Part shown: positions 1-23,341 of the stretch, piece after piece | How the letters are laid out: each line of letters begins with the position of its first letter | Numbering within the stretch: position 1 is the stretch's first letter | IMG/VR virus record: IMGVR_UViG_3300009124_000108 | Location: 1-23,341 of that record | Reading direction: 5' to 3' (one strand) | From: a virus | DNA length: 23,341 bases | Made by a program: the position numbers and the translations under genes | Notes under the pieces: generated by a model | What the model was told of the DNA's origin: nothing | Database searches by the model: none | The model's input: the letters and a program-made list of their open reading frames with translations, nothing else

Positions 1-1380
1 ATTTGAAATTCTAAAGTGGCCTTTTATAGTAGAAGTGGAGTCATCAATTGTTCTTAAAAATGGTTGAATATCAGTTGTATTATCATCCTCATCACTAATA
101 TAAAGATTAAGTGCTCCAGAGAATGGAGATTCACTAAACTTTAATTTTCCTGATCCTGGATCCGAATTTGTTGTGTCGGTGCTAAAAGTATAATCAAAAG
201 TAGCACCACCAAAGTTACCATCATTTCCTTGACTTCCTTGAGAACCTTGTGACCCTTGACTTCCTTGAGAACCTTGGAAACCTTGATTACCTTGAGAACC
301 TTGGTTCCCTTGATTCCCTTGGTTACCTTGTGATCCCTGAGCACCCTGTGCACCAATTGGATCAATCCAATGCCAACCACTACCAGTAGAACTTAATACA
401 GAACCCGCAAGTCCTACATTATCATATTGATCATGAATGGTACCAGCAATCTTAAGATTAGAATTTGCTTCTAAATCTCCCTGTACTGTAGCAATACCAC
501 TTACATATAAGGAATCTGCATTAATAATTGCTGTATTTGCTAAACCAGTAATAGTTACATTACCAGTTGATTGATCAATTTGTATATGATCTCCTGCGGT
601 AATGGAAGTGACTATACCAGTTAAATATATGCCATCTCCATAGTAAGTTGTTACACCAGATGGAGAGCCAACGGTTGCTCCTAATCCAGATGATGTAACT
701 TCAAAGTTGCCGATAGTAGAAATTCCATTAGATTGGTTGACATCAAGAGAAGTTACAGATGCAATGCCACCAATAACATTTTCTACCGTGACTAGATCGA
801 CTGTAACTGTACCAACACCAGTACTATCACCAATTACAGTTACATTTGATCCTCTGAAATCGAGTGCGGTAAATGTACCTGCAATTGAAATAAGAGACCC
901 TTCATCATACAGACTTATACCCTCAACTGCTCCTGCAGATCCTTGTGCAATCCATTGTGGAGGTAATCCTGCTCCTCTTGACGCAAGTATTTGTCCAGTT
1001 GAACCATTTTCAAATGCAGATGTTACACCAGTATTTGCTTGATATAAAATTTGTCCATCGCTTCCACCATAGATGTTAGTTGCATAAGTTGCACTTGTGA
1101 CACCAGTTAAACCATCTGCCTGTCCATAAATTCTGTAAGCAGAAACAATACCAACTGCAAGTTTAGATGTGTTAGATGATGTTACTTCTGCATCAGGATT
1201 TGTAGTGCCAATTCCGACACTATTTGAAATATAACCACTTCCTTCTACATGTAATGACTGACTAGCAGAGTCTGTCCCGATACCAAGACGACCAACAACT
1301 TCAAGTGAAGTGAGATCTTCACTATGAGAACTTACACCAACTTTGAGATTTAATTGGTCGTTACTTGTATACTTAGGCAT
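1..1380 (-). CDS. Tail fibre protein with collagen-like segment, partial (C-terminus outside window)
   Basis: The reading frame opens at ATG (1380-1378) and stays open for 460 codons to the left edge, so the C-terminus is missing. It starts MPKYTSNDQLNLKVGV and is rich in Gly, Ser, Thr and Val. Recognisable pieces are LGIGTDSASQSLHVEG (a trimeric fibre-type phrase found in many marine phage fibres), a GGSDGQILYQ...GSTGQILAS...PPQWI unit also found in the 973-residue fibre, a TTYYGDGIYLTGI motif, a 16-triplet collagen-like run and a C-terminal part that begins ATFDYTFSTD. It lies 5 nt downstream of the 114-residue gene, in the same orientation and with no obvious Shine-Dalgarno, so it is probably read through from the same late transcript. 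I infer a trimeric tail fibre or decoration fibre. The fold family and receptor cannot be named. Confidence 0.85.
   Translation of the reverse strand, partial: MPKYTSNDQLNLKVGVSSHSEDLTSLEVVGRLGIGTDSASQSLHVEGSGYISNSVGIGTTNPDAEVTSSNTSKLAVGIVSAYRIYGQADGLTGVTSATYATNIYGGSDGQILYQANTGVTSAFENGSTGQILASRGAGLPPQWIAQGSAGAVEGISLYDEGSLISIAGTFTALDFRGSNVTVIGDSTGVGTVTVDLVTVENVIGGIASVTSLDVNQSNGISTIGNFEVTSSGLGATVGSPSGVTTYYGDGIYLTGIVTSITAGDHIQIDQSTGNVTITGLANTAIINADSLYVSGIATVQGDLEANSNLKIAGTIHDQYDNVGLAGSVLSSTGSGWHWIDPIGAQGAQGSQGNQGNQGNQGSQGNQGFQGSQGSQGSQGSQGSQGNDGNFGGATFDYTFSTDTTNSDPGSGKLKFSESPFSGALNLYISDEDDNTTDIQPFLRTIDDSTSTIKGHFRISN
211..354 (-). repeat. Collagen-like (Gly-X-Gln)n segment
   Basis: Sixteen uninterrupted Gly-X-Y triplets are encoded. 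The first fourteen are Gly-X-Gln with X mostly Ser or Asn, once Phe and twice Ala; the last two are Gly-Asn-Asp and Gly-Asn-Phe. Gly and Gln codons vary (GGT/GGA/GGG, CAA/CAG), so the repeat is kept at protein level rather than being a fresh DNA duplication. Collagen-like triplets in phage fibres are known to form trimeric rods. Here the segment follows the phrase GWHWIDP and precedes a globular-looking part, so it is probably a flexible stalk. Confidence 0.9.
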
Positions 1381-10300: not shown

Positions 10301-12287
10301 TTCCATTATTTGAAAAGATTCTTACTGATTCTCCTTGTAGGAATTGATGATCATCAATAAAAGTTAAAGTTGAACTCGTAATACTATTTCCAGTAGATAC
10401 GTTTCTTCCAACTACAGATACCTTTTTACCAGTTGTCTTTGTTGTATCATTAGCAGTGTCGTCCATGACGACTCTTGCGCGGAATGTCTTTAAATTTCCT
10501 GAAACAGGGATAACTACATTCAATTCTTCATCATTCTTTGCACCAAATCTATATCCTTGAATAACCGTATTCGGTCCTTCGTCCTGATTGGTGAAGTTAT
10601 AAAGATATAACTTAGAATTGTCAGCAACACTCGTAGTTTTTGTGATGTCAATTGCTGGGAATTCAACTGTTGAATACTCAGGTTTCAGGGTTTTTGGTGG
10701 AATAATCTGAGTAATATAACCAACATTATCTTGAGAGAATGAATCAACTTTATATCCTTTTGATGTTAAAGCAATTTGACCAAAGTTTGAGTTTGAGTTG
10801 GTAACCGAGAAATCACCACCAGATTCTACAATAAACTGATTAGAATAACCAATAGCAAAAATAGATACTAACTGAATAAAACCATTATTCGATGCTTTAA
10901 CGTGATAATTGGTATATGATGGCTTATAAACTGCATCAATGTCCGAATGTAGATTTGCTACAGTTGTAGAATCATCAAATGAACCACTAGTTGAATTATA
11001 CTTTACAAATGCATTATCATCTACCTGTAAACTGATACCAGTAAACTGTGCAACAACCATGGACTTGAATCCATCAGTACTATTACCATCAGCATGCATA
11101 CCACACATACCGTAAATAGATCTCTGAGAGACATTGAAGATATAAGGAGATGCACTAGTGACAGTATCTGTAGAAAGATCTACTGTAGAACCACTTGGAT
11201 TTGGAAGAGGAGTGCCAGGTGAATTGGGAACCTCATACTTGAATCCAGTAACACCAGTTTCGTCCGCGGTTGTTATTTCAGTTACAAGATAAGTTCCATT
11301 ATATCTGGTATCAGTTACATTATTGATTGTTACATTGGTATCAACATTCAGTCCAATAATACCTTCCGTAAGTTTAACATCGATAATGGAAGTTGGGGTA
11401 ACACCATCACCCGCTTTAATACTACTAATTCCAACTGAACCAGACAATGGACCAACGATTCTATATTCGTCAATCTTTGGTTGGATATCTACTCCAGAAC
11501 TTGGATAATCTGGTTCAATTTCTCTTCCACTTGCTGGACCATAAACGATACCAAGTTTTTCATAGTACATATCCAGATCTGTACGATCTGTGGCATATGT
11601 AACAAAATCATCGTCAATGTTTACATTATTTCTACCGTCCGCATATTCAAATGTGGTCAGTTTATGGTGAGAGAATGTTGGTTTGAATGTGTTATCGCTA
11701 TAATCTTTGTAACAGGATCTATTAGTATCTGCATCTTTGATGGAGAAACTATTCATATATGTAGCACCAGTCATCCTAAAGATGGCTGATCTCTCAATCA
11801 AATCATTCTGAGGATTTGGTACATATATTGGTCTAATTAAAGTCTTTCTAAGATCTTGTCCAACAATAGAAACACCTCTAGGTACAATAACCCCACCATG
11901 AATACTATTCAACTTATAGAGAATATTATTTGCATCTAGAATGTTGAAATTAGTGGTATTACTGAATGAAGTAAAGTCAGACGAAGTGATACCACTTCTC
12001 AACAAGAATGTATTCAAACCTGTAGGAATCCAACCAGGTCTGTTATCAATATAATGTACACCAGGAGAAAGATAGATAGTTGTCTTTTCAAATCTATCGT
12101 TATCAAGACCTTTTTGATAGGAGAATCTCGCTGCTTCAATAAGAGCTCTTTGAAGAGTTTTGAATGGACGAGAGAAAGAATTGCCTTGATTCTCTACACC
12201 ATCTGTCGCATCCAAATTGTTTGGATCGACATACAAAATATTTCCTTTTACATTCTTCAGAAAGTTGTCTAAACGTGACAGAGGCAT
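7389..12287 (-). CDS. Giant beta-helix tail fibre / structural protein, 1632 aa
   Basis: The start at 12287 (MPLSRLDNFLKNVKGNILYVD) is chosen over an in-frame TTG 15 nt upstream, because it is an ATG after a GAGAAAG ribosome site and matches the N-terminus I know from T4-like cyanophage structural proteins. Residues 20-140 contain the phrase RPFKTLQRALIEAARFSYQ and PGVHYIDNRPGW, the entry to a pectate-lyase-like beta-helix. The segment SMVVAQFTGISL through FIQLVSIFAIGYSNQ (about 10780-11065) and the C-terminal ASAHTFEYIGYG module (about 7975-8025) also occur in the 973-residue protein. The middle is a series of Thr/Ser/Asn-rich beta domains with SGYNGTYEVTGI-type strands. It is the largest gene here and sits under its own late promoter. 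The enzymatic role, if any, is unknown. Confidence 0.85.
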   Translation of the reverse strand: MPLSRLDNFLKNVKGNILYVDPNNLDATDGVENQGNSFSRPFKTLQRALIEAARFSYQKGLDNDRFEKTTIYLSPGVHYIDNRPGWIPTGLNTFLLRSGITSSDFTSFSNTTNFNILDANNILYKLNSIHGGVIVPRGVSIVGQDLRKTLIRPIYVPNPQNDLIERSAIFRMTGATYMNSFSIKDADTNRSCYKDYSDNTFKPTFSHHKLTTFEYADGRNNVNIDDDFVTYATDRTDLDMYYEKLGIVYGPASGREIEPDYPSSGVDIQPKIDEYRIVGPLSGSVGISSIKAGDGVTPTSIIDVKLTEGIIGLNVDTNVTINNVTDTRYNGTYLVTEITTADETGVTGFKYEVPNSPGTPLPNPSGSTVDLSTDTVTSASPYIFNVSQRSIYGMCGMHADGNSTDGFKSMVVAQFTGISLQVDDNAFVKYNSTSGSFDDSTTVANLHSDIDAVYKPSYTNYHVKASNNGFIQLVSIFAIGYSNQFIVESGGDFSVTNSNSNFGQIALTSKGYKVDSFSQDNVGYITQIIPPKTLKPEYSTVEFPAIDITKTTSVADNSKLYLYNFTNQDEGPNTVIQGYRFGAKNDEELNVVIPVSGNLKTFRARVVMDDTANDTTKTTGKKVSVVGRNVSTGNSITSSTLTFIDDHQFLQGESVRIFSNNGRLPDGLDSNKIYFAIVDGLGSDQIQLAQSFNDSLSGSKISINNFGDTLTVESRVSDKLAGDIGHPVQYDTTENQWYVNVSAASTENNIYSKIIGGGLGDATPRTYFTRKKDTRQSDDRIHKLRFVIPSSTGSDSARPPLDGYILQESNTVSADTNAEVALEFNPSSVTMSNDAQMKNFNFLANVDYRLGTAYYTTEKPHKLSVGSKVTINNVISSLFPTVGVGNSGYNGTYEVTGISSAKTFSVSSITSNPGTFTNNTSQRTTSLPTVSKKNFTKDYYVYDVETINDYKNGEQDGIYYLSILKADINPSISPFNTEDYKFSQPVQNLYPQLDRDNPVTTADSSISYAIPNNIGEVIIDNTKNSATGESLGDFFQDSGIGIGITDIISNNVGTAYTIYTDHDHGLNRITRAVIDNPGAGYGDGSSSIQYIYNATLQNTSPGSIGRNATALITVDGTSSSEIIDIQIMDGGSSFVEGDTFRVVGVATTTGYTIATGSVNKIYDNRGDTINISGIRGYEGRQYNTNYRITSIPAIDEIEVVPVGSSPGISTLGLGLDEVGSGNFTLIGPSYTVNSFVYNKDVGIATVTTNYANEYRVNNSVVVSGATDSFFNGSFVCIDKVGLTTVVLSVGVNTVTPSTGGTIRIQSSPYQDNFGDIVVADGRLHGRESSIYAGITTTLSSAISSKTTDTINVSNMTSYGFLIGDYLQVDDEIMRIKTTVSRVNGTTQLKVFRGVYGTIADTHVSGSVIRKINFFPLEFRRNSIIRASAHTFEYIGYGPGNYSTAFPNKQTKQLTLNEQINVQAQKIGGGVVNYTGMNDRGDFFIGNKRIASNTGREQVYDTPVQTVTGEDPFTVGISEDISDFNYVEGSIVKVERNLVVDGGDKSNILSEFNGPVQFTQKVISTSDDGIEANSIFIQGDANVSRKVTVGISIPVQAGNPGDIVFNANPSSGGTVGWVYTTNNEWKSFGTISS

Positions 12288-12769: not shown

Positions 12770-12779
12770 TTCAAGTCAG

Positions 12780-12863
12780 TGGGCATGGCGGGACTCGAAC
12801 CCGCACGAGATTACTCTCAACGAATTTTAAGTTCGGTTCGGCTACCAATTACGACACACGCCC
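12780..12863 (-). tRNA. tRNA-Leu(UAA)
   Basis: Read on the minus strand, the acceptor stem GGGCGTG / CATGCCC pairs fully with one G-T wobble. A D-arm with GG in its loop, an anticodon loop CTTAAAA with anticodon TAA, a long class II variable arm (TGAGA / TCTCG stem) and a T-arm GCGGG-TTCGAGT-CCCGC are all present. The discriminator is A, as expected for Leu. No CCA is encoded. The anticodon stem CCGAA / TTCGT has a C-U mismatch at its first pair (27-43). The tRNA reads UUA, a frequent codon in AT-rich phage genes, so it probably supports phage translation. It sits inside the small-gene cassette, 32 nt after the stop of the 110-residue gene. Confidence 0.95.
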
Positions 12864-12912: not shown

Positions 12913-13198
12913 GATAATACTCTTTGTGGACATCATTTTCATCATCATCCAAAGACATCTCTACCGTTTCCTCAAGAACCCAAGAATCTTCACTTTCTAA
13001 AAAATTGACTATTTTGTCCCAAAGTTCGGGTGGGAAGTCATCAATAAACATTCCCCAAGTTCCTGGGTTCTCATCATCACCATCAGGTTCCCAAGTACAG
13101 TATTTGATATCATTACGATAGATTTCGAAAAGAAAATCAAATACGTTAGATTGGTCTTCTTCAGTTTGACAGTAGATTTTTAGATTATTCAGTCTCAT
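12896..13198 (-). CDS. Hypothetical acidic protein, 100 aa (or 110 aa from an upstream ATG)
   Basis: An acidic, soluble protein whose body reads MRLNNLKIYCQTEEDQSN, then a beta/aromatic middle (DIKYCTWEPDGDDENPGTWGMF) and an Asp/Glu-rich C-terminus (EMSLDDDENDVHKEYYPDG). No family is recognised. Two starts are possible in the same frame: the ATG at 13228, which adds MSIVHFTPQL, and the ATG at 13198. I prefer 13198 because the first ten codons of the longer form lie entirely inside the 51-codon gene read in another frame, and the shorter form overlaps that gene by only 14 nt, a usual phage arrangement. An AAGGAA about 12 nt before 13228 keeps the longer form possible. Confidence 0.7.
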   Translation of the reverse strand: MRLNNLKIYCQTEEDQSNVFDFLFEIYRNDIKYCTWEPDGDDENPGTWGMFIDDFPPELWDKIVNFLESEDSWVLEETVEMSLDDDENDVHKEYYPDGYH

Positions 13199-13340
13199 AA
13201 GTTGGGGGGTGAAATGCACAATACTCATTAAAAGTAATTTTCATTTCCTTGTTAGTAAGATTAGCATGTTTTGCTGCTTTTGGCAAGTTCCATTTTGCTT
13301 CAAACAACATTTCCATTGACTTTCGTGTTTCAGGCCTCAT
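13185..13340 (-). CDS. Small protein with possible helix-turn-helix, 51 aa
   Basis: A short reading frame from ATG (13340-13338) to TAA (13187-13185). The protein begins MRPETRKSMEMLFEAKW and ends FHPPTYETE. The core NLPKAAKHANLTNKEMKITF has the alternation of a small helix-turn-helix unit (helix, NLT turn, helix), and I have an impression of similar short proteins in T4-like cyanophages. It fills the otherwise empty gap between the 77-residue gene (stop 8 nt upstream) and the next gene, which supports its being real. No good Shine-Dalgarno is seen, so it may be translated by coupling. A DNA-binding role is only a guess from the pattern. Confidence 0.6.
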   Translation of the reverse strand: MRPETRKSMEMLFEAKWNLPKAAKHANLTNKEMKITFNEYCAFHPPTYETE

Positions 13341-13348
13341 ACTTATGA

Positions 13349-13582
13349 TTAGTTGGATACGGATTCAAGTGGTTCTGCATATGCGATACAATTTTTTGGA
13401 ACAACTGCACGGATCAATTCAAGTACATTCATGAATTCATCCACATTATCACAGTCAACGATACGTGTTTCACCATAGTTAGAATAAAGATAAAACTTAC
13501 GAAGACATGTATCAACAACAACTCTTGTAAGCCACTCATCATCTTGTTCAAGAGGATAATTGTCTGGTTCTGATTGGCTCAT
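13349..13582 (-). CDS. Hypothetical protein, 77 aa
   Basis: First gene of the early-looking cassette. The 77-residue acidic protein (MSQSEPDNYPLEQDDEWLT...) has a disordered acidic start, a beta/helix core (VVVDTCLRKFYLYSNYGETRIVD) and an Ile/Val-rich helix (VDEFMNVLELIRAVVP). It has three Cys, with no motif spacing. Similar short acidic proteins are frequent in cyanophage hyperplastic regions, but I cannot assign a function. A TAGGAG sequence lies about 15 nt upstream, just after the -10 box of the promoter at 13605-13633. The transcript leader would be only about 20 nt. Confidence 0.7.
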   Translation of the reverse strand: MSQSEPDNYPLEQDDEWLTRVVVDTCLRKFYLYSNYGETRIVDCDNVDEFMNVLELIRAVVPKNCIAYAEPLESVSN

Positions 13583-13604
13583 AGTTTTTCTTGACCACTC
13601 CTAT

Positions 13605-13633
13605 AGTATAGATCAATCCAACAGAGGTGTCAA
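13605..13633 (-). promoter_or_regulatory. Near-consensus sigma-70 (early-type) promoter of the small-gene cassette
   Basis: On the minus strand TTGACA (13633-13628), a 17-nt spacer, then TATACT (13610-13605). The -35 is a perfect match, the -10 matches 5 of 6 and the spacing is ideal. The -35 box contains the TGA stop of the 229-residue structural gene (13632-13630). Such host sigma-70 type promoters serve early genes in T4-like phages, whereas the surrounding structural genes carry late octamers. It would drive the 77-, 51- and 100-residue genes, tRNA-Leu and the 104-residue gene, up to the terminator at 12328-12358. Confidence 0.85.
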
Positions 13634-14319
13634 TCGTTATATGGCCACTTATCATTCTGTCCCATCTCTACAGGGAGTGGTGCAATATCTTTCCTTGTTC
13701 CTGTAATTGTATAGTAACAGTCAATAGTGGTACCATTACCAGATTTTATAATGACGTTTTTACCCCATTGAATATCTTGAACAATAAGATCTTGAGAATA
13801 TCCAATTTGAGTCAATTGAACTGAGATAGACTCAGAATCAACTAATTTTGTCCAATATTCTGGAAGTACAATCGTATTAGAACCTTTCAATCTCCCACGA
13901 ATATAAACTCCATTCTCTGGACCTTCAAGACATGCATGAACAAGTTTCATATCATCCTTAGTGGGATGATCGATCACAAACGGTTTCACTGAAAATGTGC
14001 CAGTATTCGCAATTACTGTTCCAGATACAGTAAGTGATTTTCCGAGGAAATCAGTTACAGATGCGGTTCCACAGTCACCTGCAATTGTAATATCACCTGC
14101 AATTGTAATATCATTATTGACCTTAAGATCATCAATTTGTGCAGTCGAATGATACAACTGATCACAAGGAGAAATTTCTACATCTAAATCAACATCTTCA
14201 ACATCATCACGATTAAATTTTGCGATATATGAATAGATTGTTGATGGTGTACCTGTTACTTGTTTGTCGGTACAATCCTGTTTGCCAAAACTTCTTGGTG
14301 TAAATCCTGAAAAAGCCAT
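13630..14319 (-). CDS. Tail tip / fibre protein with IDHP-type C-terminal domain, 229 aa
   Basis: Start MAFSGFTPRSFGKQDCTDKQ, preceded by AAGGA with good spacing and located 2 nt after the upstream stop. Residues 60-110 are short beta repeats (NDITIAGDITIAGDCG, LTVSGTVIANTGTFS). The C-terminal half begins VIDHPTKDDMKLVHACLEGPENGVYIRG and is homologous to the C-terminus of the 257-residue gene just upstream. This domain occurs in several marine phage structural proteins. Its fold and activity are not established to my knowledge; from its position after a fibre-like repeat it may cap or fold the fibre. It is the last gene of the hub operon, and its stop codon lies within the -35 box of the next promoter. 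Confidence 0.8.
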   Translation of the reverse strand: MAFSGFTPRSFGKQDCTDKQVTGTPSTIYSYIAKFNRDDVEDVDLDVEISPCDQLYHSTAQIDDLKVNNDITIAGDITIAGDCGTASVTDFLGKSLTVSGTVIANTGTFSVKPFVIDHPTKDDMKLVHACLEGPENGVYIRGRLKGSNTIVLPEYWTKLVDSESISVQLTQIGYSQDLIVQDIQWGKNVIIKSGNGTTIDCYYTITGTRKDIAPLPVEMGQNDKWPYND

Positions 14320-14321
14320 TA

Positions 14322-15095
14322 TTAGTCCTTAATATCGTAGTGGTATCCTGAAATTGAATATTGTTGATTATCTCCTGGATAATCTGCTGGGGTCTTACCC
14401 TTGTATTCTGGAATTAGACTTTCTCCATCCTTTCTTTCCGCATATACATGATAAAAACAATGGATAGGAATACCAGACTTAGTTTGAAGATAGACTTTAT
14501 CCTCATCAATTCTTTTAACCATAATATCTTGATGTGCTCCGACTGGAGTTAAACTTACGGTGATGGAGTCTTTGTGAACAAAATCTTTCCAGTATGATGG
14601 AAGTTCAATAACATCTTTATTTTTAAGTGTTCCCCGGATGTAAACATCATTGGTAGGAGCTTCTGGACAAGTATGTCTGAGTCTCCATCCCTTTTTAGAG
14701 GGATGAGGAATATCAAAGTTCTTCTTCCTAGAAAGAACATGAAGACCGCAACGAGAAACAACTTCTCCTTGAGCAATCACATGTAATCCTACATTAACAC
14801 TAAAGTTTGTGTCAACATTACCCATAAATGCTGCTGGTCCAACAACAGAAAGAGAGTAAGGATTGCTGACTCCCATACAAAGTGAGCCAGGAATAAATGG
14901 TGGTGGTGACTCTGGATTGACCAGTGGACCAATCATAGATGATGCCCAAACATTTGGGAATGTTGCCGTTCCTGTGATAGTAGGACCCTGTAAGTAAGCA
15001 GAACCTCTAATTTCTGCTGGTCCTCTACCTAATGCTTCTGGTTTACCAAGACCAAGGAATAATCTTTTACCAACATTTATATCAGGTACTTTCAT
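14322..15095 (-). CDS. Tail tip / fibre protein, paralogue of the next gene, 257 aa
   Basis: Start MKVPDINVGKRLFLGLGKPE at an ATGA overlap with the 191-residue gene, implying translational coupling. The N-terminal 120 residues are Gly/Pro/Val-rich with fibre phrases (GPTITGTATFPNVWASS, SLSVVGPAAFMGNVD). The C-terminal domain begins FDIPHPSKKGWRLRHTCPEAPTNDVYIRG and aligns with the downstream 229-residue protein over about 100 residues (HPxKxxxxLxHxCxExPxxxVYIRG, then xLPxYWxxxV, then VxLTxxGxxQDxxV). The two genes look like an old tandem duplication with different N-terminal attachment parts. A structural role near the baseplate spike is inferred from the operon context. Confidence 0.8.
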   Translation of the reverse strand: MKVPDINVGKRLFLGLGKPEALGRGPAEIRGSAYLQGPTITGTATFPNVWASSMIGPLVNPESPPPFIPGSLCMGVSNPYSLSVVGPAAFMGNVDTNFSVNVGLHVIAQGEVVSRCGLHVLSRKKNFDIPHPSKKGWRLRHTCPEAPTNDVYIRGTLKNKDVIELPSYWKDFVHKDSITVSLTPVGAHQDIMVKRIDEDKVYLQTKSGIPIHCFYHVYAERKDGESLIPEYKGKTPADYPGDNQQYSISGYHYDIKD

Positions 15096-15667
15096 ACTTT
15101 GTTTTGCTCCTCGTTAAGTGAACCACCTAAAGATCCTTTTATACTTGTCGCACCATCCGCAACATCTACAAGTCCTCCGTATATATTCAAGATACCTCTA
15201 CCTATCATTTCTACAGTTTTTTCTGAAAATATTTTTGTACTGACTGTGGAGTTTACATCAATAGTTTGTGCTTTAATGATGACTTTATCATTTGCATCGA
15301 TTATAATGTTTCCATTCTCACCATCAGCTCCAGATGCAATTAAATCAATATTGATTCCCTCAATTCTTACCCTGCCACTTGGTGCCCTTAAAACTAAATC
15401 ACCACTTACTGCTTCAACATATACACCAGGATGATCATCTGGAACATTATCCCCTGCTCTTACCTGAAAAGAACCAGGAGAACGACAGATTGTTCCATAC
15501 TTTCTATGTTTCTCACCAGTAGAATCTAAGGTAATATAGTGATTAGATACTGCACCATTTCTCAGAAGAACTCCAGATAAAACATTATCCTGAGTTAGAT
15601 GTCCAAACTTTAATTCTCCTTGTGCTGTACCATATCTAATAGTATGATAATTTTTTAATTCTGCCAT
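15092..15667 (-). CDS. Baseplate spike / needle beta-helix protein (gp5 C-terminal-like), 191 aa
   Basis: After an N-terminal part with VLLRNGAVSNHYITLDSTGEK, the segment from about residue 85 to 180 is a run of regular short strands (GDLVLRAPSGRVRIEGINID, NIIIDANDKVIIKAQTIDV, EKTVEMIGRGILNIYGGLVD). This looks like the triple-stranded beta-helix that forms the membrane-piercing needle in T4 gp5 C-terminal domain, P2 gpV and VgrG proteins. In T4 this part is fused to gp5; here it is a separate gene whose ATG overlaps the gp5-like stop (TAATG). That order supports a spike that docks on the gp5 OB domain. No PAAR motif was seen. The call rests on pattern and context. Confidence 0.65.
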   Translation of the reverse strand: MAELKNYHTIRYGTAQGELKFGHLTQDNVLSGVLLRNGAVSNHYITLDSTGEKHRKYGTICRSPGSFQVRAGDNVPDDHPGVYVEAVSGDLVLRAPSGRVRIEGINIDLIASGADGENGNIIIDANDKVIIKAQTIDVNSTVSTKIFSEKTVEMIGRGILNIYGGLVDVADGATSIKGSLGGSLNEEQNKV

Positions 15668-18039
15668 TAGACTTTACCTACACAATCAATAACCGTAACT
15701 ACCTTATCTTGTGTTGTTGGTTCCTTAAGTTTATCGTCACCAACTCTATCTATACACAATCTTGGACGTAATACTGCATTATAACCTGTATTGGATTGAA
15801 TGTAAAGTTGTGGATATTCAGTAAACCCTTCTCCACTCTCAGTAACTTTAATTGAAGTAACTCTACCCTGACTATCAAATTTAGGTTCTGCAATTGCTCC
15901 AATATCAGGTTCTATTACAATCCTGTCACCTTCAGAATAATTAATACCACTTTCTTGAATTAGAACATCACAAAGATAAAGAATAACTGGATATGAACCA
16001 GTCGATAGTGATGGATAATTTCCAGATACTCTAGAGAAATCGGGTTGTGGTGATGTGAAGACACCTGGTAGTGTAACTAAAACACCATCGCCACCACAGA
16101 TTTCTTCACCACCACCCTGGTCTCCTGGTTGTGCTTCTGTGACAATACAAACTCCTGGAGGTAAAGTTACTTCATCACCAGGATTGACTGTAATAATATT
16201 TCCTGGAGGTTTTGGTGTATCGTATGATCCATCTGGATGCTTAACAATAGTATCTTCTGGATCTGCCCAGGTATACTCATTACCTCCTTTACTACCATCT
16301 GGTGCAGGTAAATATCCTGTACCAGGTTCAATAATTTCAATATCTACAACACCAGACTGAATATTTCCGTCATCATCGGTATAATCCTCAACAATTGGTC
16401 TAATTACCGCACCCTTTCCCTTTCCACAATTATCAAACACATTTCCATAAGTTTTGGTTTTGTCATATCCGACACCAAAACTTATCATATCAATACCAAT
16501 CACCTCACCAGCTGCAGATATAATTAGATTACCTAATGCTCCTGTTCCTGTCTCCGCACCAAAGAATTGAGCGACAGGAGGACCACAAAGTTGTGGACCA
16601 ATATTACATGCATCTAAACTGAATACATTATCAAAATTCAAACTAAAATCAAAATTATCAACATCAGTTAGATTTTGAACACCTGCAGCTAAATTTTTAG
16701 CTTTACCAACAATGGTATCAATACTAGTTTTACTTATTGGTTTAGCACCACTTAAGATATTCCACTCATTAACTGTAGAACATGCAGGTTTTTCTTCACA
16801 AGATAGGAAAGAGAGAAGATCTGTTAAAAGACCTAAAATGTCCCCTGCAATTGATGTTGCTTGTCCTACAAGAGAATTGATAGATGATAAAGCTTTATTG
16901 ATTTGGCCAGATAGAGTACCAAGAATCTGACCCAATGTATTAGCAATAAGATTTTCAACTATACATTTTGCACCGTTGATGACTTTATTTGCAGCATTTT
17001 GTAGAAAAGATTGAATATTAGCTAAGAGAGCTTTGATAAATTTTCTAAACAAACAAGCAATCAAATCATTAATTGACTCAACTGCAGTTTTAAGTTGAGG
17101 TCTTTCATTTGGGAACAAAAGAAAGTAAGTATCCTTCAATGTACTATTGATTTTATATGTGACATATTTTTGAACTTGTTTGAAGACCCACTTTATACTT
17201 GAAGCAACTAATTTAGATGCCTTTGCAATCTTTTCATTTATGGCCTCTTGCTCATCCGATATTTGGTTTTGGACTGCGCTACTGTATTTGTATATCGATT
17301 TTTGTATCTTCTGAATCTCTACAATTATATTCTGAATGTCTTTTTGAATCTTACCTAATGGAATTGGATCACAATCAGATGACTGAGCTAACGGTTGGCT
17401 TTTTTCATCTGCGGAAGATTCCGATGCAGCGTCCTTCTTTGAATTAGAAGTTGTTGCCGACTCATTTACATTTTGATTATTTGGTTCACCAGATGTATCT
17501 CCTTGAGTATTTGAGTTACCATCGGTCGTCTGTGATCCACCTTGTTTTACTATCTCACCACCCTTATTGACGTTTTGAGAATAGTATGCAACATAATCAT
17601 TTGGAGTATAACCACTAAAAGGAACAAACCTGGCTTTAGATATATTTTTACTTACCGCGGCATATTCATTCTGACCCAATACTCCCATGATAACAGGAGT
17701 TTGTGCATCTTCTCCATCTAAGAAGAAACCAAAAACAAATGTTCCTTGAGTTAAGTTTGCAGATTGTGAAGATGCACGAAGACCACCACCAGCAGTCACT
17801 GGATACATTACATATGCCCAAGGAAGTTCTTCATCAGTAATTCTATCAGAATCTGCCGTGTGGTATCCCATGATACGAACACGATATCTCTCAGAAAAAC
17901 CCAAAACACTTTCATTATTATCAACTGGTAGACCAGGTATATTATCTTTCCATGAAGATTCTGGAGCTATCTGTCCTATCCACCAGATAAACCCATCTCG
18001 ACCTACAAAATATCTTTTAAAGAGTCCTTGTTCTATCAT
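15667..18039 (-). CDS. 5: Baseplate hub protein, gp5-like OB-fold without lysozyme, 790 aa
   Basis: Residues about 10-125 match the N-terminal OB domain of T4 gp5 (FVGRDGFIWWIGQI, RYRVRIMGYHTAD, EELPWAYVMYPVTAGGGLRAS, FVFGFFLDGEDAQTPVIMGVLG). No lysozyme catalytic pattern follows. Instead there is a Ser/Asn/Gln/Thr-rich linker (about 150-220), a long helical and amphipathic region (about 225-415) ending in Cys-containing turns (CEEKPAC), and then a C-terminal beta part with Pro/Gly-rich segments and three GxGY/GxGF turns (SFGVGYDK, IEPGTGYLPAP, SGEGFTEYPQL). Size and layout resemble gp5 of marine T4-like phages. It overlaps the gp27-like gene by ATGA, as expected for hub partners that form the gp27-gp5 complex. 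Confidence 0.85.
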   Translation of the reverse strand: MIEQGLFKRYFVGRDGFIWWIGQIAPESSWKDNIPGLPVDNNESVLGFSERYRVRIMGYHTADSDRITDEELPWAYVMYPVTAGGGLRASSQSANLTQGTFVFGFFLDGEDAQTPVIMGVLGQNEYAAVSKNISKARFVPFSGYTPNDYVAYYSQNVNKGGEIVKQGGSQTTDGNSNTQGDTSGEPNNQNVNESATTSNSKKDAASESSADEKSQPLAQSSDCDPIPLGKIQKDIQNIIVEIQKIQKSIYKYSSAVQNQISDEQEAINEKIAKASKLVASSIKWVFKQVQKYVTYKINSTLKDTYFLLFPNERPQLKTAVESINDLIACLFRKFIKALLANIQSFLQNAANKVINGAKCIVENLIANTLGQILGTLSGQINKALSSINSLVGQATSIAGDILGLLTDLLSFLSCEEKPACSTVNEWNILSGAKPISKTSIDTIVGKAKNLAAGVQNLTDVDNFDFSLNFDNVFSLDACNIGPQLCGPPVAQFFGAETGTGALGNLIISAAGEVIGIDMISFGVGYDKTKTYGNVFDNCGKGKGAVIRPIVEDYTDDDGNIQSGVVDIEIIEPGTGYLPAPDGSKGGNEYTWADPEDTIVKHPDGSYDTPKPPGNIITVNPGDEVTLPPGVCIVTEAQPGDQGGGEEICGGDGVLVTLPGVFTSPQPDFSRVSGNYPSLSTGSYPVILYLCDVLIQESGINYSEGDRIVIEPDIGAIAEPKFDSQGRVTSIKVTESGEGFTEYPQLYIQSNTGYNAVLRPRLCIDRVGDDKLKEPTTQDKVVTVIDCVGKV

Positions 18040-19346
18040 TTAAATCCCGTTTTCGTTCCGAATGAATCTCTAACCAAAGCTAATCGTGTAAAAGTTTCTC
18101 TTGGAGTAACTCTGTGACATACACTCGCTACCATATATATCCCACCAGTTTGCTTATTCTTCTCCTTATTTCTGTCACCAGAAACTTCAGGAAAATCACA
18201 TTTGATAATATCACCAGCTTTGATACTAAAGTCTGCTGCAATAGTAATATTTGTCTTAATAGTGAACATTTGGTTGTATCTCATGACTGATTGGGCCATG
18301 GTACTTTCTGCCTCATAATTACCTGCAGTTTTATTTTGTTTCCATTGAGTCAATTGATCATTACCTCTACCATTGGGCATTGTTCCTACATCAAATACAT
18401 GACTCATCAATCTTGTAGGAGATTCGGTAAATTCTTTGGCAACCAAGTCACCTCCAAAATATTTACCAGCCTTACCAACATTATCTGGTTGGTATTTGTA
18501 TTGTTTTACATAATAATCCATCGAAAATGGATTAAAGTAGATTGATCTACTATTATATGTTCCAAGAGTCAGATTTTGTTTTAGATCAATATCACTATCA
18601 ATAGAATAGTCTAAGACATTACCATCATATTCTTCTGGAGTTTGACCAGTATTATTAAAAATATATTTCTTGACCGGTTCTTGTTCAAACAAAGAATCAA
18701 TAGACCTAAAATTGAATCCATCTCTTGTTTGGTAGAAAAGAAATCCTGCTCTTGATCCTACATCCTTATCTGGAACAGCTTTTGATGCTAACCAAGTACA
18801 AGTGTAAAAAGGTTTTCTATCATTACCAATAAAGTTATAACTCAGTGATGTGTTATCAATCTTTTCAATTTTACCATCTATTGAAGTTATAATTTGGTTT
18901 ATGTGATCAGATATTTTTCCCTCATACCTTTCTACGACTCTTTGTTGTTCGTTAGAGAAAAATTCTTTAGATGCAAAATCTATAAAGAAAACATCTTTAG
19001 ATGTACCTGGATCAGCATCTCGAACTCTATTTACATACAGACCTTTCAGTTCTTTGAATGACAACTTATTATCATTATTATCTTCAATCACAATATCTGT
19101 TCTTTCACCACCTCTTATGGGAAGTTCATCCAAAATACCCTTTGAGGTAATAACTTTATCACCATCGGTTTTATATCCACTGTCTACAATTACTGCAGTA
19201 GCAGTTACATTGTTCGACAAGACACTTTCATAATAACGAAATTCAACCACTCCACCAGATAGGTCTGCAGCTTTATTGTTCTGATTTGAAGAAATCTGAA
19301 ACTTTTGAATATTACCAGGAGATGTAGGTGCGTTTTGTGAGGGCAT
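18036..19346 (-). CDS. 27: Baseplate hub protein, gp27 / gpD-like, 436 aa
   Basis: Position and size (T4 gp27 has 391 residues) suggest the tail-hub torus that receives gp5. The N-terminal beta barrel part reads GGVVEFRYYESVLSNNVTATAVIVDSG and GGERTDIVIEDNNDNKLSFK, similar in style to late-control gpD/gp27 proteins. The middle carries FFIDFASKEFFSNEQQRVVERYEGKISDHI, and the C-terminus has a second barrel-like part (SIKAGDIIKCDFPEV, GGIYMVASVCHRVTPRETFTRLALVRDSFG) typical of hub proteins. It starts on a TAATG overlap with the 883-residue gene. Sequence similarity to T4 gp27 itself is too weak to see by eye, so the symbol is a context-based assignment. Confidence 0.7.
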   Translation of the reverse strand: MPSQNAPTSPGNIQKFQISSNQNNKAADLSGGVVEFRYYESVLSNNVTATAVIVDSGYKTDGDKVITSKGILDELPIRGGERTDIVIEDNNDNKLSFKELKGLYVNRVRDADPGTSKDVFFIDFASKEFFSNEQQRVVERYEGKISDHINQIITSIDGKIEKIDNTSLSYNFIGNDRKPFYTCTWLASKAVPDKDVGSRAGFLFYQTRDGFNFRSIDSLFEQEPVKKYIFNNTGQTPEEYDGNVLDYSIDSDIDLKQNLTLGTYNSRSIYFNPFSMDYYVKQYKYQPDNVGKAGKYFGGDLVAKEFTESPTRLMSHVFDVGTMPNGRGNDQLTQWKQNKTAGNYEAESTMAQSVMRYNQMFTIKTNITIAADFSIKAGDIIKCDFPEVSGDRNKEKNKQTGGIYMVASVCHRVTPRETFTRLALVRDSFGTKTGFK

Positions 19347-21997
19347 TATCCTTGTTTATATAAGAATCCCATAAGTTGAGACTTGTAATAGCTATTTACT
19401 ACGTCTTTTGTACTTCCACCTACGATAACAGGTCCACTACCTCCTCCACCACCCATCATTGGAGATTGTGTAGGAACTGGAACTGGTACTACATTACTGC
19501 TTTGACCACCTGACATCTCATAAGATGCATATCTCTGAACATTACTCGATTGTGTAGGTACAGTTTGAGTTGGGGAAATATTTACTTTTTGTTGAGTCTG
19601 TCCAGTCATTTGACCAGTTGGATTTTTAGAACTCAAGATAAGGTGACCAACAAATGGTGAAGGATCTCCCATTCCACCATAATCGGTACCATCTTTCACA
19701 TTATCAACCTCAAAGTGAAGGTGTGGTCCTGTGGAACTACCTGCTCCTTTATCACCCTGTGCACCACCAGTTCTACCCAATGCTGTTCCTGCAGGTATTT
19801 TTTGACCCGCACTTACTAAAAATTGACTCAAATGAGCAAGTCTAAATTGTAATCCAAGTGAAGGTGACCAGGCGTCAACAACAAAACCATAACCACCAGC
19901 CTTCGCCGCAAACATAATTTCAACATCAGTATCTAATGCAACATATGTTCCTGTTGGAGTGCCAATATCAATACCCCCATGTAATCTACCCCATCTTTGA
20001 CCATATCCAGATGTTACTTGATATCCACTTACCATATCACCCTTCTTTGCACCGGTGGTGTTACCACCTCTTTGTATAATACCAGAATAACTTTGACTTG
20101 TACTTCCAAGTTGGGCCTGTTGAGTTTGTTGAGTTTGTTGATTACTACTCTGAGAAACTGGGGTCGGTAAATTTGATGTAGAAGTAGTTTGTGTCAATGG
20201 TCCAGGTCTAGAATTGGCAGCTGCCATTTGAATACTAAACCCACCACCAGTTCCAAGATAATTTTTGGCAGCAACACTTAAATCCAACATATGATTTGAT
20301 TTGTGACCTGCTACACCTGGTCCCACATCATTCACTCTTATAACAGCCTTCTTACCCTGAGAATTTGTCACTATGACATGGAATGGTTTCTTCAATGTTC
20401 TTCCACCTGGAAATCTCCTAGCAGGAACTGTCATATGAGATGGTAACATTGCTAATAGTGGTGGAAATGCTGCCGCAGAAAATACCTCTGGTCTATATCC
20501 TTCTCCCGTAGATGTTGCAGGGAGTCCATCTGCTGTTTTATATCCACTAGCATTGATACCACCAAGTGATGGGTCATAGTACGTTGTATGTGCACCTGTA
20601 ATATTGAGACCACCAGCAACACTTCCCGAACCAGCACTTCCAGTACTTCCCGAACCAGTACTTCCAGTGTTTGATGTTGTATTTCTTGGAGGTTGATTAT
20701 TATTGGTGGTTTCAGTTATTTTCGGAATGATACCCATCTTTTGTTTGATGAGTTCATAAAGTGCCTTTCCTCCCCAATCACCAATCATACTACCAAGGAT
20801 TGCACCAGCAGCTGTTCCAGCAAAAGGAAATACCAATGATCCAATACCTCCACCAATCCATGCACCAATACCACTTCCAATTGCACCAACTACAGCTCTA
20901 TCAAGTGGTTCTCCCAACAAAAGATCAATAAACAATCCAATAAATGAACCAATTACAGGTACTCTTTTAAAAATTGACTTAATTTTAAAAATTCTTTTAG
21001 CACCTCGACCAAAAAGACTTCTCCCAACTTGTTTTGATGATTCTTTTGAAGCTGTTTTAGCCGTACTACTTGCTGCACTTCTAGCAGTGGCAGTAGCTGC
21101 ATTGGTGGAGGAGGATGCACCTTTAACTGCAGCTTGAGCTCCGCCACCTGAGACTAAACGTTTTACTTTTCCAACAATGTTCTTAACAAAATTTACAAGA
21201 CTTCCACCAAGTCCACCAAAAACTTTTTTAATTTTAGGACCAATTCTTTTGGTTACATTTTTCAACCCTTTGCCAGTTTTAAGTAATAAATTATAGGATC
21301 CTTTCAAGAATGATTTGATTGGTCCTCCAAATACCGTACCTATTCCTAGTATTGTATGTTTAATTAGATTAAATGGATTTTCAAAGTTTTTTATTATTGT
21401 GCTAAATAAATTTTCAATAGTTTTGTAATTATTCAACAAAAATAATATCAATCCACCCATCAATATATTTGTAATAAAGTCAAAAATTCCACCTTTCATA
21501 GTGGATGATATACCTATTCCAGGAATATTAATTCCACCTCTTTTTTTCTCTAGACGTTCTTCAATTCTTTTAGTCTTTTCTTTATTAGCCTTTCTCTTTG
21601 TTTCTTTAGATAATTCTTTTTTTGCCTTTTTCTCAGAATTTGCAAATTCGACAAGTGACTTTGTTGTTCTGTTTATATTTTCAAGTTGTTTACTTAATGA
21701 CTGATATGATACTTTATCTGTCTGTGTTGTTTGACTTGTTCTTCCACTAGTTCTGTAAACAGAACTAGAAACTTTTATTTTAGAAACTTTCTTTCTTCTT
21801 GGAATTGATGTTGTTGATGATGTCGTTCCTGTGGTGCCTTTACCTTTCTTATCGACGGTTGCTTTTGATTTACCTACCTTCTTATTCCCACTACTTACAA
21901 ACTTTTTTGCAGCACCCTGCGCAAACTTACTTGTTACTCCCTTCGTTAAAGAACCTGATGCAACTCTTGCAACACCTGAAAGTAATGGAAGTACCAT
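19346..21997 (-). CDS. Tape-measure-like tail protein with RlpA-type barrel and M23 endopeptidase, 883 aa
   Basis: Residues 1-160 are very basic and helical. A hydrophobic segment (about 171-188, DFITNILMGGLILFLL) and a Gly-rich hydrophobic stretch (about 346-420) look like membrane-inserting tape-measure parts. Residues about 470-582 match the RlpA/expansin-like double-psi beta barrel (HTTYYDPSLGGINASGYKTA, FHVIVTNSQGKKAVIRVNDVGPG, DLSVAAKNYLG) with the conserved Asp at 557. Residues about 655-790 are a LytM/M23 metallopeptidase with HGGID (His673, Asp677), His722 and HLHFE (His759, His761), so the zinc site is intact. The tail is Gln/Pro/Gly-rich. M23 enzymes cut peptidoglycan cross-links and RlpA barrels cut or bind glycan. 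This is probably the virion-borne wall-opening enzyme. It follows a GGGGTAG ribosome site, 4 nt after the previous gene. Confidence 0.85.
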   Translation of the reverse strand: MVLPLLSGVARVASGSLTKGVTSKFAQGAAKKFVSSGNKKVGKSKATVDKKGKGTTGTTSSTTSIPRRKKVSKIKVSSSVYRTSGRTSQTTQTDKVSYQSLSKQLENINRTTKSLVEFANSEKKAKKELSKETKRKANKEKTKRIEERLEKKRGGINIPGIGISSTMKGGIFDFITNILMGGLILFLLNNYKTIENLFSTIIKNFENPFNLIKHTILGIGTVFGGPIKSFLKGSYNLLLKTGKGLKNVTKRIGPKIKKVFGGLGGSLVNFVKNIVGKVKRLVSGGGAQAAVKGASSSTNAATATARSAASSTAKTASKESSKQVGRSLFGRGAKRIFKIKSIFKRVPVIGSFIGLFIDLLLGEPLDRAVVGAIGSGIGAWIGGGIGSLVFPFAGTAAGAILGSMIGDWGGKALYELIKQKMGIIPKITETTNNNQPPRNTTSNTGSTGSGSTGSAGSGSVAGGLNITGAHTTYYDPSLGGINASGYKTADGLPATSTGEGYRPEVFSAAAFPPLLAMLPSHMTVPARRFPGGRTLKKPFHVIVTNSQGKKAVIRVNDVGPGVAGHKSNHMLDLSVAAKNYLGTGGGFSIQMAAANSRPGPLTQTTSTSNLPTPVSQSSNQQTQQTQQAQLGSTSQSYSGIIQRGGNTTGAKKGDMVSGYQVTSGYGQRWGRLHGGIDIGTPTGTYVALDTDVEIMFAAKAGGYGFVVDAWSPSLGLQFRLAHLSQFLVSAGQKIPAGTALGRTGGAQGDKGAGSSTGPHLHFEVDNVKDGTDYGGMGDPSPFVGHLILSSKNPTGQMTGQTQQKVNISPTQTVPTQSSNVQRYASYEMSGGQSSNVVPVPVPTQSPMMGGGGGSGPVIVGGSTKDVVNSYYKSQLMGFLYKQG

Positions 21998-22001
21998 CTA
22001 T

Positions 22002-23341
22002 CTACCCCACTATATTGTAAATTGACTTGACAACAATCAAATCATAATTGCTGGTGTCTTCAGCACCAAAATTTGGAACTTTTCCTTGAGATGCAGAAGA
22101 TCCACTACTTGGAACTTGTTGAGAAACAGGAACTGGAAGAACTGTTGTTCCTCCTCCACCAGCCCCCATTGCAATAGGAGGTCCAGGAGGTCTTACAATA
22201 CCACCACCAGGTTGAACTACCGTGGGAGAAGCACCACGATTTAGTTTTGCCTGAATAGATTGTGCTTCTTTACTTCCTGATTTAGCAAACATATCCAATA
22301 AATTTGGTGTTTGCCCCACCGATTGAGGAACCGAACCCCCACCTTTCAGACCTGGCAACATTGAACCAAGAACCTTATTTGCTAAAGCAAGTGAATGTTT
22401 ACCAACTTTACCTTGGGACACCTCACCCAAATACATCCCAATTGCAGGATCATCAATAGCAGCAACCTCAAGAATAGTACCTCCAGCAGCAGTAACCCCC
22501 TTTGCTTCCACAGGAACACCAGGATAATTTCCAAATACTGATGCCATCGCTCTATCGATTGCTGATATTTTATTTGAGTGTGGGTTTAAAACTCCAGCTC
22601 TTCCACCCCTTGCATCAAAATGTAAGTCAACAAATTGAGATCCTTGTGAAGATTCTACTCTACCTGGTAATCCTTTTAGTCCTTTATTACCTTTGTATGC
22701 AGTAATATTTTCAAAAGATATCCTACTGGCGAGTTCTTTGTTCTGTCCAACTAATTGTTTTATCGTTTTAACAAGATGTCTTGTTGCTCTCCATTCTGGA
22801 ACTCCGCCATTTGCAAACTGTGATGTTCCTTCAACAGGACGACCATCAGACCCAAGTGCAATACCTTTCATTGCATTTTCTTCTGATGGTGAATGACCGG
22901 CACCAATAACAAGTTTTCCTACTTGTCCACCACCTTCGAACCCTTGAATACTACCAAACTTCGGTTTGTTTGTACCACCAGCTAAAGCATTTGCAGCAAG
23001 AAGATTTTTGGCACCATATGCTGCTACTGCTTTTTTACTCATCATAATTTCCCCAGGTTGGGCAGCAATCAATTGAGTATCCTTTCCAAGTCCTTTAATT
23101 TTCAGACCACTCTTTCCATCTATTGCACCACCATCAAATAATGAAAGGTTCTTAATATCAATAACAGTTCCACCACCCTCTTGTTGTTGTATCCAGTCTG
23201 GATATTCAATTTTTGGAATATTTGGAATTTTTATTTCTGGAATGTCTGGAAACTTTATATTCCCAACACCTGGCACAATTCTACCGATCTGTTTAAGTGC
23301 GTACTCAATTTCATTAAACGCACTATTCAATGCTCGAATAG
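22002..23341 (-). CDS. Tail protein with amidase_3-like domain, 5'-partial
   Basis: The frame is open through the right edge, so the N-terminus is missing. The first ATG inside the window is internal, and an in-frame TTG at 23330 is not a credible start. The visible 446 residues begin with a helical part and an Ile/Pro-rich stretch (IKFPDIPEIKIPNIPKIEYP). The phrase QPGEIMMSKKAVAAYGAKNLL and Gly-Gly-Gly runs are typical of tail tape-measure proteins. Between about 22420 and 22910 are GAGHSP (His codon 22895-22893), PEWRATRHLVKTIKQL (Glu 22796-22794), VDLHFDA (His 22622-22620) and ILEVAAIDDP (Glu 22469-22467), the order of zinc ligands and catalytic Glu in N-acetylmuramoyl-L-alanine amidases of type 3. 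The C-terminus is Pro/Gly/Ser-rich. Confidence 0.75.
   Translation of the reverse strand, partial: IRALNSAFNEIEYALKQIGRIVPGVGNIKFPDIPEIKIPNIPKIEYPDWIQQQEGGGTVIDIKNLSLFDGGAIDGKSGLKIKGLGKDTQLIAAQPGEIMMSKKAVAAYGAKNLLAANALAGGTNKPKFGSIQGFEGGGQVGKLVIGAGHSPSEENAMKGIALGSDGRPVEGTSQFANGGVPEWRATRHLVKTIKQLVGQNKELASRISFENITAYKGNKGLKGLPGRVESSQGSQFVDLHFDARGGRAGVLNPHSNKISAIDRAMASVFGNYPGVPVEAKGVTAAGGTILEVAAIDDPAIGMYLGEVSQGKVGKHSLALANKVLGSMLPGLKGGGSVPQSVGQTPNLLDMFAKSGSKEAQSIQAKLNRGASPTVVQPGGGIVRPPGPPIAMGAGGGGTTVLPVPVSQQVPSSGSSASQGKVPNFGAEDTSNYDLIVVKSIYNIVG

Follow-up and report, generated by a model that had tools for sequence, protein, structure and literature searches.

The T4-like cyanophages rank with the most abundant viruses of the sea, and their tails raise a simple question: which protein opens the cell wall if the central spike lacks the lysozyme of T4 gp5? 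In the searchable literature, we found no clear assignment of either the gp29 tape measure or the wall-penetrating enzyme of these phages. The locus studied here resembles that of T4 in encoding a gp27-like hub and a spike with a Gp5_OB domain, and the presumed role, local cutting of the wall at infection, is the same. It differs in that T4 gp5 itself carries the lysozyme, whereas the predicted wall enzymes here reside on two proteins, termed A and B, that are encoded before the hub. We propose that A and B are probably tape-measure-like proteins of the tail lumen that deliver interchangeable wall hydrolases and thereby take over the task of the T4 gp5 lysozyme. Records currently list the two genes under names such as endolysin, chitinase, or hypothetical protein. 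If our reading is true, it would provide a likely identity for both the cyanophage tape measure and the wall-penetrating enzyme, explain the lysozyme-less gp5, and make the wall-cutting cargo a fast-changing, testable component of the infection machinery.

A constant gene order around the tail hub

The window, i.e., the whole stretch of DNA analysed, is a linear 23.3-kb virus fragment. It belongs to a T4-like marine virus with a cyanobacterial host, and its closest isolates are the Synechococcus myoviruses RN05-S, S-H68, S-B05, and RB11-B. According to the list of open reading frames (ORFs), A, B, and the genes for the gp27-like and gp5-like proteins lie on the minus strand (Table 1), with a gap of 4 bases between A and B. 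Gene A is truncated by the end of the window, and its product therefore lacks the N-terminal half; the full-length orthologue in RN05-S measures 831 aa and is labelled 'endolysin' in the record. Orthologues of B are labelled 'peptidase family M23', and that of RN05-S measures 939 aa.

In the isolates, the genes follow the order gp4, gp26, gp51, A, B, gp27, gp5, and the order gp26-gp51-A-B-gp27-gp5 was constant across the relatives' loci compared. The arrangement noticed originally in the window is present in these relatives and, instead of being peculiar to the window phage, is general in T4-like cyanophages carrying such a gp27. The late-promoter motif ATAAATA does not exceed chance frequency in the window. 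In S-B43 (locus L005, 7789-9921), A is shortened to 710 aa, and the next gene encodes a fibre on the opposite strand. The genes B, gp27, and gp5 do not adjoin this A, which has no annotation in the deposited record.

Table 1. Features of the A-B-gp27-gp5 locus in window coordinates.
Feature	Position	Strand	Basis or remark
Gene A, candidate tape-measure-like tail protein with predicted amidase cargo	22002..23341	-	ORF; 5' end lost at contig end
Gly-rich segment '...AQPGEIMMSKKAVAAYG...' of A	22965..23204	-	Conserved among A proteins
Amidase_3-like cargo (predicted N-acetylmuramoyl-L-alanine amidase fold), A aa 136-336	22332..22934	-	AF2, Foldseek, and conservation
Putative metal/catalytic residues of A: His149; Glu182; His240; Glu291	22893-22895; 22794-22796; 22620-22622; 22467-22469	-	
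C-terminal tail of A (...DLIVVKSIYNIVG)	22005..22142	-	Sequence comparison; retained despite cargo swaps
Gene B, candidate tape-measure-like tail protein; cargo: M23 and predicted DPBB	19346..21997	-	ORF
N-terminal backbone of B: coiled/basic, hydrophobic segments, glycine zipper (aa 373-413)	20678..21997	-	Homologous to N-terminal half of A
Predicted double-psi beta-barrel (DPBB) cargo, B aa 461-611	20165..20617	-	Pfam, AF2, Foldseek
Conserved Asp557 within DPBB segment RVNDVGPG	20327-20329	-	
Peptidase M23 domain of B	19670..20023	-	Pfam, 1.1e-13
M23 motif: HxxxD (H673/D677); HxH (H759/H761)	19967-19981; 19715-19723	-	
C-terminal tail of B (...VNSYYKSQLMGFLYKQG)	19349..19450	-	Sequence comparison; conserved
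gp27-like hub protein	18036..19346	-	phrog_350, E=1.1e-91; start codon overlaps B stop
gp5-like central spike	15667..18039	-	Gp5_OB domain; lysozyme domain not recognisable

Profile searches find no lysozyme in the gp5-like spike

The sole Pfam domain in the gp5-like protein of the window is Gp5_OB (28.1 bits against a cut-off of 25). Pfam profiles for the lysozyme family PF00959 matched neither this protein nor 25 further homologues, among them those of P-SSM2, Syn9, S-PM2, S-CREM2, S-N03, HTVC008M, and phiM12. The identical search recovered PF00959 in T4 gp5 at 1.3e-12. Judged by profiles, the spike is thus without a recognisable lysozyme, as originally noted. Since the homologues show no lysozyme, the 'tail lysozyme' label that PHROG attaches to the gp5-like family appears to be inherited from T4. 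Two gp5-like proteins of ca. 1150 aa (L022, 9289-12744; L035, 14466-17918) contain insertions of ca. 380 aa that matched no Pfam family.

Wall-active folds in A and B

The candidate amidase domain of A has no match in Pfam. Its AF2 model (pLDDT 80.5, pTM 0.80) retrieved 24 Foldseek matches at E<=0.001 with a best E of 1.3e-6, and the top 25 entries were almost all amidases or amidase endolysins. Matches to the Amidase_3 enzymes Ami1, PlyPSA, CD27L, and Nostoc AmiC2 fell at about 1e-6 to 1e-5, and the model accordingly places the domain in the Amidase_3 fold. Four candidate residues, H149, E182, H240, and E291, are kept in sequence order among relatives with the same domain type (type 1). The residue pattern is recognisable in a divergent second type present in RB11-B, S-B43, and locus L021, and the profiles of the two types align at E=1e-41. 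Sequence profiles of the PDB returned nothing useful for either the amidase or the DPBB domain.

B certainly contains an M23 peptidase domain by Pfam (aa 672-766, E=1.1e-13, 51.6 bits against a cut-off of 28.7), and its zinc motif is intact (HxxxD at 673-677, HxH at 759-761). The DPBB region scores 20.8 bits in Pfam (E=4.6e-4), below the gathering cut-off of 28.8. An AF2 model built on an alignment of 23 relatives (pLDDT 79.6) predicts the double-psi beta-barrel fold. Its best Foldseek match is the hub of cyanophage A-1(L) (8kea_A, 5.7e-5), followed by PA4485 (4avr_A, 1.1e-4, TM 0.73 by target), with kiwellins and expansin ranking lower. Compared with E. coli RlpA, hhalign gave 81% and aligned the RINDRGP-like Asp segment; Asn104, Asp105, and Asp120 (numbering of alignment A6) are invariant in all 23 sequences. 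A counterpart of the RlpA His segment TAAHPTLP was not found in the B DPBB, which reads SAAAFPPL there, and a literature search on the RlpA residues gave no result.

The folds predicted for the two genes before the hub were thus recovered, M23 by Pfam and the amidase and DPBB by AF2 and Foldseek. For the 'RlpA-type barrel' the agreement extends to the DPBB fold; membership in the RlpA lytic transglycosylases was rejected on the low Pfam score and the non-conserved His segment. The bonds suggested at first (stem peptide, glycan, and cross-bridge) also need correction: the predicted amidase would cut the MurNAc-L-Ala bond and the M23 domain the peptide part, with the glycan left to the DPBB. Because whole domains with catalytic motifs recur in dozens of related contigs, the wall-active folds in A and B are not a chance finding.

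A and B are paralogues by sequence comparison

A and B have homologous N-terminal backbones according to one hhalign comparison (97.9%, E=4.8e-13, 212 columns) and to BLAST, which detects the relationship inside the single genomes of S-PM2, Syn9, ACG-2014f, and S-H34. These two lines of comparison identify A and B as paralogues, i.e., sister tail proteins. The C-terminal tails of both are kept even around unrelated middles. An iterated HMM search with the backbones strayed into the coiled regions of gp5, and its result was set aside. In S-CRM01 (L083, 6347-8941), a single gene of 864 aa with a GH24 domain occupies the place of A and B; since it aligns with parts of both, the two may have fused, or one may have been lost.

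Catalytic cassettes exchanged between related viruses

The repertoire at A comprises Amidase_3-like domains of types 1 and 2, GH24 lysozyme, Amidase_2, Phage_lysozyme2, GH19, DPBB, and M23. At B, M23 occurs alone or together with DPBB, Phage_lysozyme2, SLT, GH24, or a SleB-like domain, and SLT_3 and Amidase_2 are also found. DPBB, GH24, Amidase_2, and M23 each occupy A in certain phages and B in others; the T4-type GH24 lysozyme is on A in loci L028 and L029 and on B in ACG-2014f, S-N03, and S-CREM2. Cargo was labelled with small local profiles seeded on segments located by Pfam or by eye, and the labels 'SLTx', 'CHAP-like', and 'LDT-like' are therefore provisional.

One such exchange separates RN05-S and RB11-B, which were grown on one host strain, Synechococcus MW02. 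Over the 7.2 kb that run from the end of B across gp27-gp5, the identity of the two phages is 98.3%, against 92.5% upstream and 88.5% between the cargo blocks. Exactly two blocks of DNA cannot be aligned, namely the A cargo (RN05-S locus 10854-11568) and the B cargo (13017-14299). This natural swap on a shared host makes direct experiments possible.

Across wider distances, at a gp27 identity of only 27-39%, the DPBB is mostly still 75-81% identical to that of the window, a contrast to which slow evolution of the DPBB could contribute. When cargo is mapped by parsimony onto a 42-row gp27 tree, at least 17 changes are required at A and at least 22 at B, as raw counts without a shuffle control and with unknown cargo treated as one state. 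Taken at the sequence level, these comparisons show that catalytic cassettes are exchanged between related viruses around nearly constant tail genes, which bears out the 'modular' character initially suggested for this tail-lysis arrangement. The peptidase genes of P-HM1 and P-HM2, which share a position and are too diverged to cluster (Sullivan et al. 2010, PMC3037559), are a candidate equivalent of the A/B locus.

Two A proteins have unusual contents. That of S-CREM2, gp208 (L079, 5484-10181), seemingly carries three cargo domains: amidase-like (793-975), CHAP/NlpC-like (1060-1205, identified by eye), and GH19 (1326-1479). That of S-PM2, p207 (L007, 1821-5324), has, beside Phage_lysozyme2, an ADP-ribosyltransferase domain at its N-terminus (ART, E=1.3e-5, above the cut-off), which by its sequence is a possible injected non-wall effector.

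Proposed placement of A and B in the tail

The tape-measure identity of A and B is one that we infer, because direct profile homology was not found. Sequence likeness to tape measures takes the form of local matches, to phrog_167 at E=8e-10 and to the solved tape measure 9ki1 (9ki1_g, 2-3e-4) at the glycine zipper of B; the Gly-rich segment of A containing AQPGEIMMSKKAVAAYG weakly matched a PHROG tape-measure family (E=0.094). Direct homology to T4 gp29 or to pelagiphage tape measures was rejected as not significant in profile comparison, with hhalign probabilities of at most 14% against T4 gp29 and the tape-measure candidates of HTVC008M, phiM12, and Melnitz-2. The leading genera matched by tblastn with T4 gp29 include no cyanophage genus. 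Position is suggestive: in HTVC008M and phiM12, the annotated tape measure adjoins gp51, the slot taken here by A and B, and the locus contains no further gene that could be recognised as a tape measure.

Further evidence comes from S-CREM2, whose ORF208 and ORF209 occupy the A and B positions and were detected in virions by mass spectrometry with 73 and 71 unique peptides; the authors regarded both as endolysins, maybe in the capsid (PMC10665884). With a tail of 418 nm, S-CREM2 encodes A and B proteins of 1565 and 1456 aa, compared with 933 and 722 aa in S-N03 (138 nm) and 936 and 735 aa in S-H34 (129 nm), a comparison that includes one long-tailed phage and in which part of the extra length is cargo and low-complexity sequence. 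The extra length of S-CREM2 A consists of low-complexity sequence and additional domains. In B, it is mainly a 13-residue repeat with a fixed Phe (25 of 40 Phe/Trp spacings equal 13, z~23), and W/F-anchored repeats have been reported in tape measures (PMC3271669). The window A and B proteins show no 11- or 13-residue Phe/Trp spacing.

In the mechanism that we consider probable, the N-terminal backbones, with their coiled and hydrophobic or glycine-zipper segments, and the C-terminal tails would anchor A and B in the tube above the gp27-gp5 hub, with the exchangeable catalytic cassettes held in between. Upon tail contraction, the lysozyme-less gp5 spike would pierce the outer membrane, after which A and B would be expelled into the periplasm in front of the DNA. 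There, the three domains would open a local hole in the wall by attacking the MurNAc-L-Ala bond (amidase), the glycan strand (DPBB), and the peptide (M23), and the hydrophobic segments may then aid DNA passage through the inner membrane. We tentatively entertain a broader version, in which A and B form a two-protein tape measure that fills the tube and also serves as an all-purpose cargo bay. Whatever enzyme domain is slotted between the fixed ends would then be injected; most of these would be wall hydrolases suited to the wall of the host, others non-wall effectors such as the S-PM2 ART domain.

The main rival places A and B on the outside of the virion, as associated lysins that belong to the baseplate hub and are exposed where the tail ends. 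The genes do adjoin gp27 and gp5, and the gp15 hub of A-1(L), whose structure is the best Foldseek match of the DPBB, bears lysozyme, DPBB-type, and peptidase domains (PMC10966104). The gp27 hub of the present locus is, however, a separate protein, and an exposed hub part would account poorly for the glycine-zipper and hydrophobic segments, the weak similarity to tape measures, the much greater length of both proteins in long-tailed S-CREM2, and the lack of another recognisable tape-measure gene at the locus; we regard this placement as unlikely. That A and B act late, as endolysins at lysis, is what the records of RN05-S, RB11-B, P-RSM4, S-N03, and S-CREM2 imply with the names 'endolysin', 'peptidase M23', or 'chitinase'. 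Sizes of 500-1565 aa, genes inside the baseplate-hub block, and the many peptides from purified S-CREM2 virions (PMC10665884) led us to reject an identity taken from these names, and S-PM2 encodes a distinct GH24 lysozyme of 169 aa at another genomic site, which together leave a role at lysis very improbable.

The domains might instead be relics or binding modules with little catalysis, exchanged by neutral recombination, and the DPBB without the His-containing RlpA segment would fit such a state. Yet the M23 metal residues are intact, the putative amidase metal residues are kept, and the three invariant DPBB residues persist in all 23 sequences. Moreover, cargo is repeatedly replaced by other functional wall-enzyme families, which argues for selection for wall cutting and makes a relic state scarcely credible. 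Tape-measure-like A and B proteins that deliver active wall hydrolases to the periplasm remain the reading that we favour.

Relation to known systems

The single elements of this arrangement are already known from virion-associated lysins, the TM4 tape measure, and the A-1(L) hub. The hub protein gp15 of the Anabaena myophage A-1(L) is similar to A and B in bringing several wall-active folds into a cyanophage tail, among them a peptidase and a DPBB-type 'endoglucanase', and these two domains lyse Anabaena cells (PMC10966104). In A-1(L), however, the hub itself bears all the domains and gp13 is a tape measure apart from it, whereas here the domains are on two pre-hub proteins. The tape measure of mycobacteriophage TM4 contains a peptidoglycan hydrolase motif and assists infection (Piuri and Hatfull 2006, PMC1796659). 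TM4 is a siphovirus with one tape measure, in contrast to the two tandem paralogues encoded here for a contractile tail, each of which can bear enzymes of several interchangeable classes. The Sle1 effectors of actinobacterial contractile injection systems are related to tape measures and, as proposed for A and B, carry exchangeable functional domains inside a contractile tail; these domains belong to a bacterial injection system and are not wall hydrolases, unlike the predicted wall hydrolases of a phage infection apparatus considered here (PMC13277306). In the searchable literature, we found no description of a tandem pair of tape-measure-like paralogues that both carry interchangeable wall enzymes and stand in for the gp5 lysozyme.

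Other features of the window

A tRNA-Leu (taa) gene lies at window positions 12779-12863, between the tail genes and a large fibre-like ORF, and RN05-S has a tRNA-Leu at the equal position. Two adjoining ORFs at 13630-15095 (229 and 257 aa) have homologous C-terminal halves and appear to be a tandem duplication, with cross-hits to phrog_28536 and phrog_17490. The tail fibre-like ORF at 1-1380 contains collagen-like Gly-x-y repeats (GSQGNQG...) at window positions 227-338.
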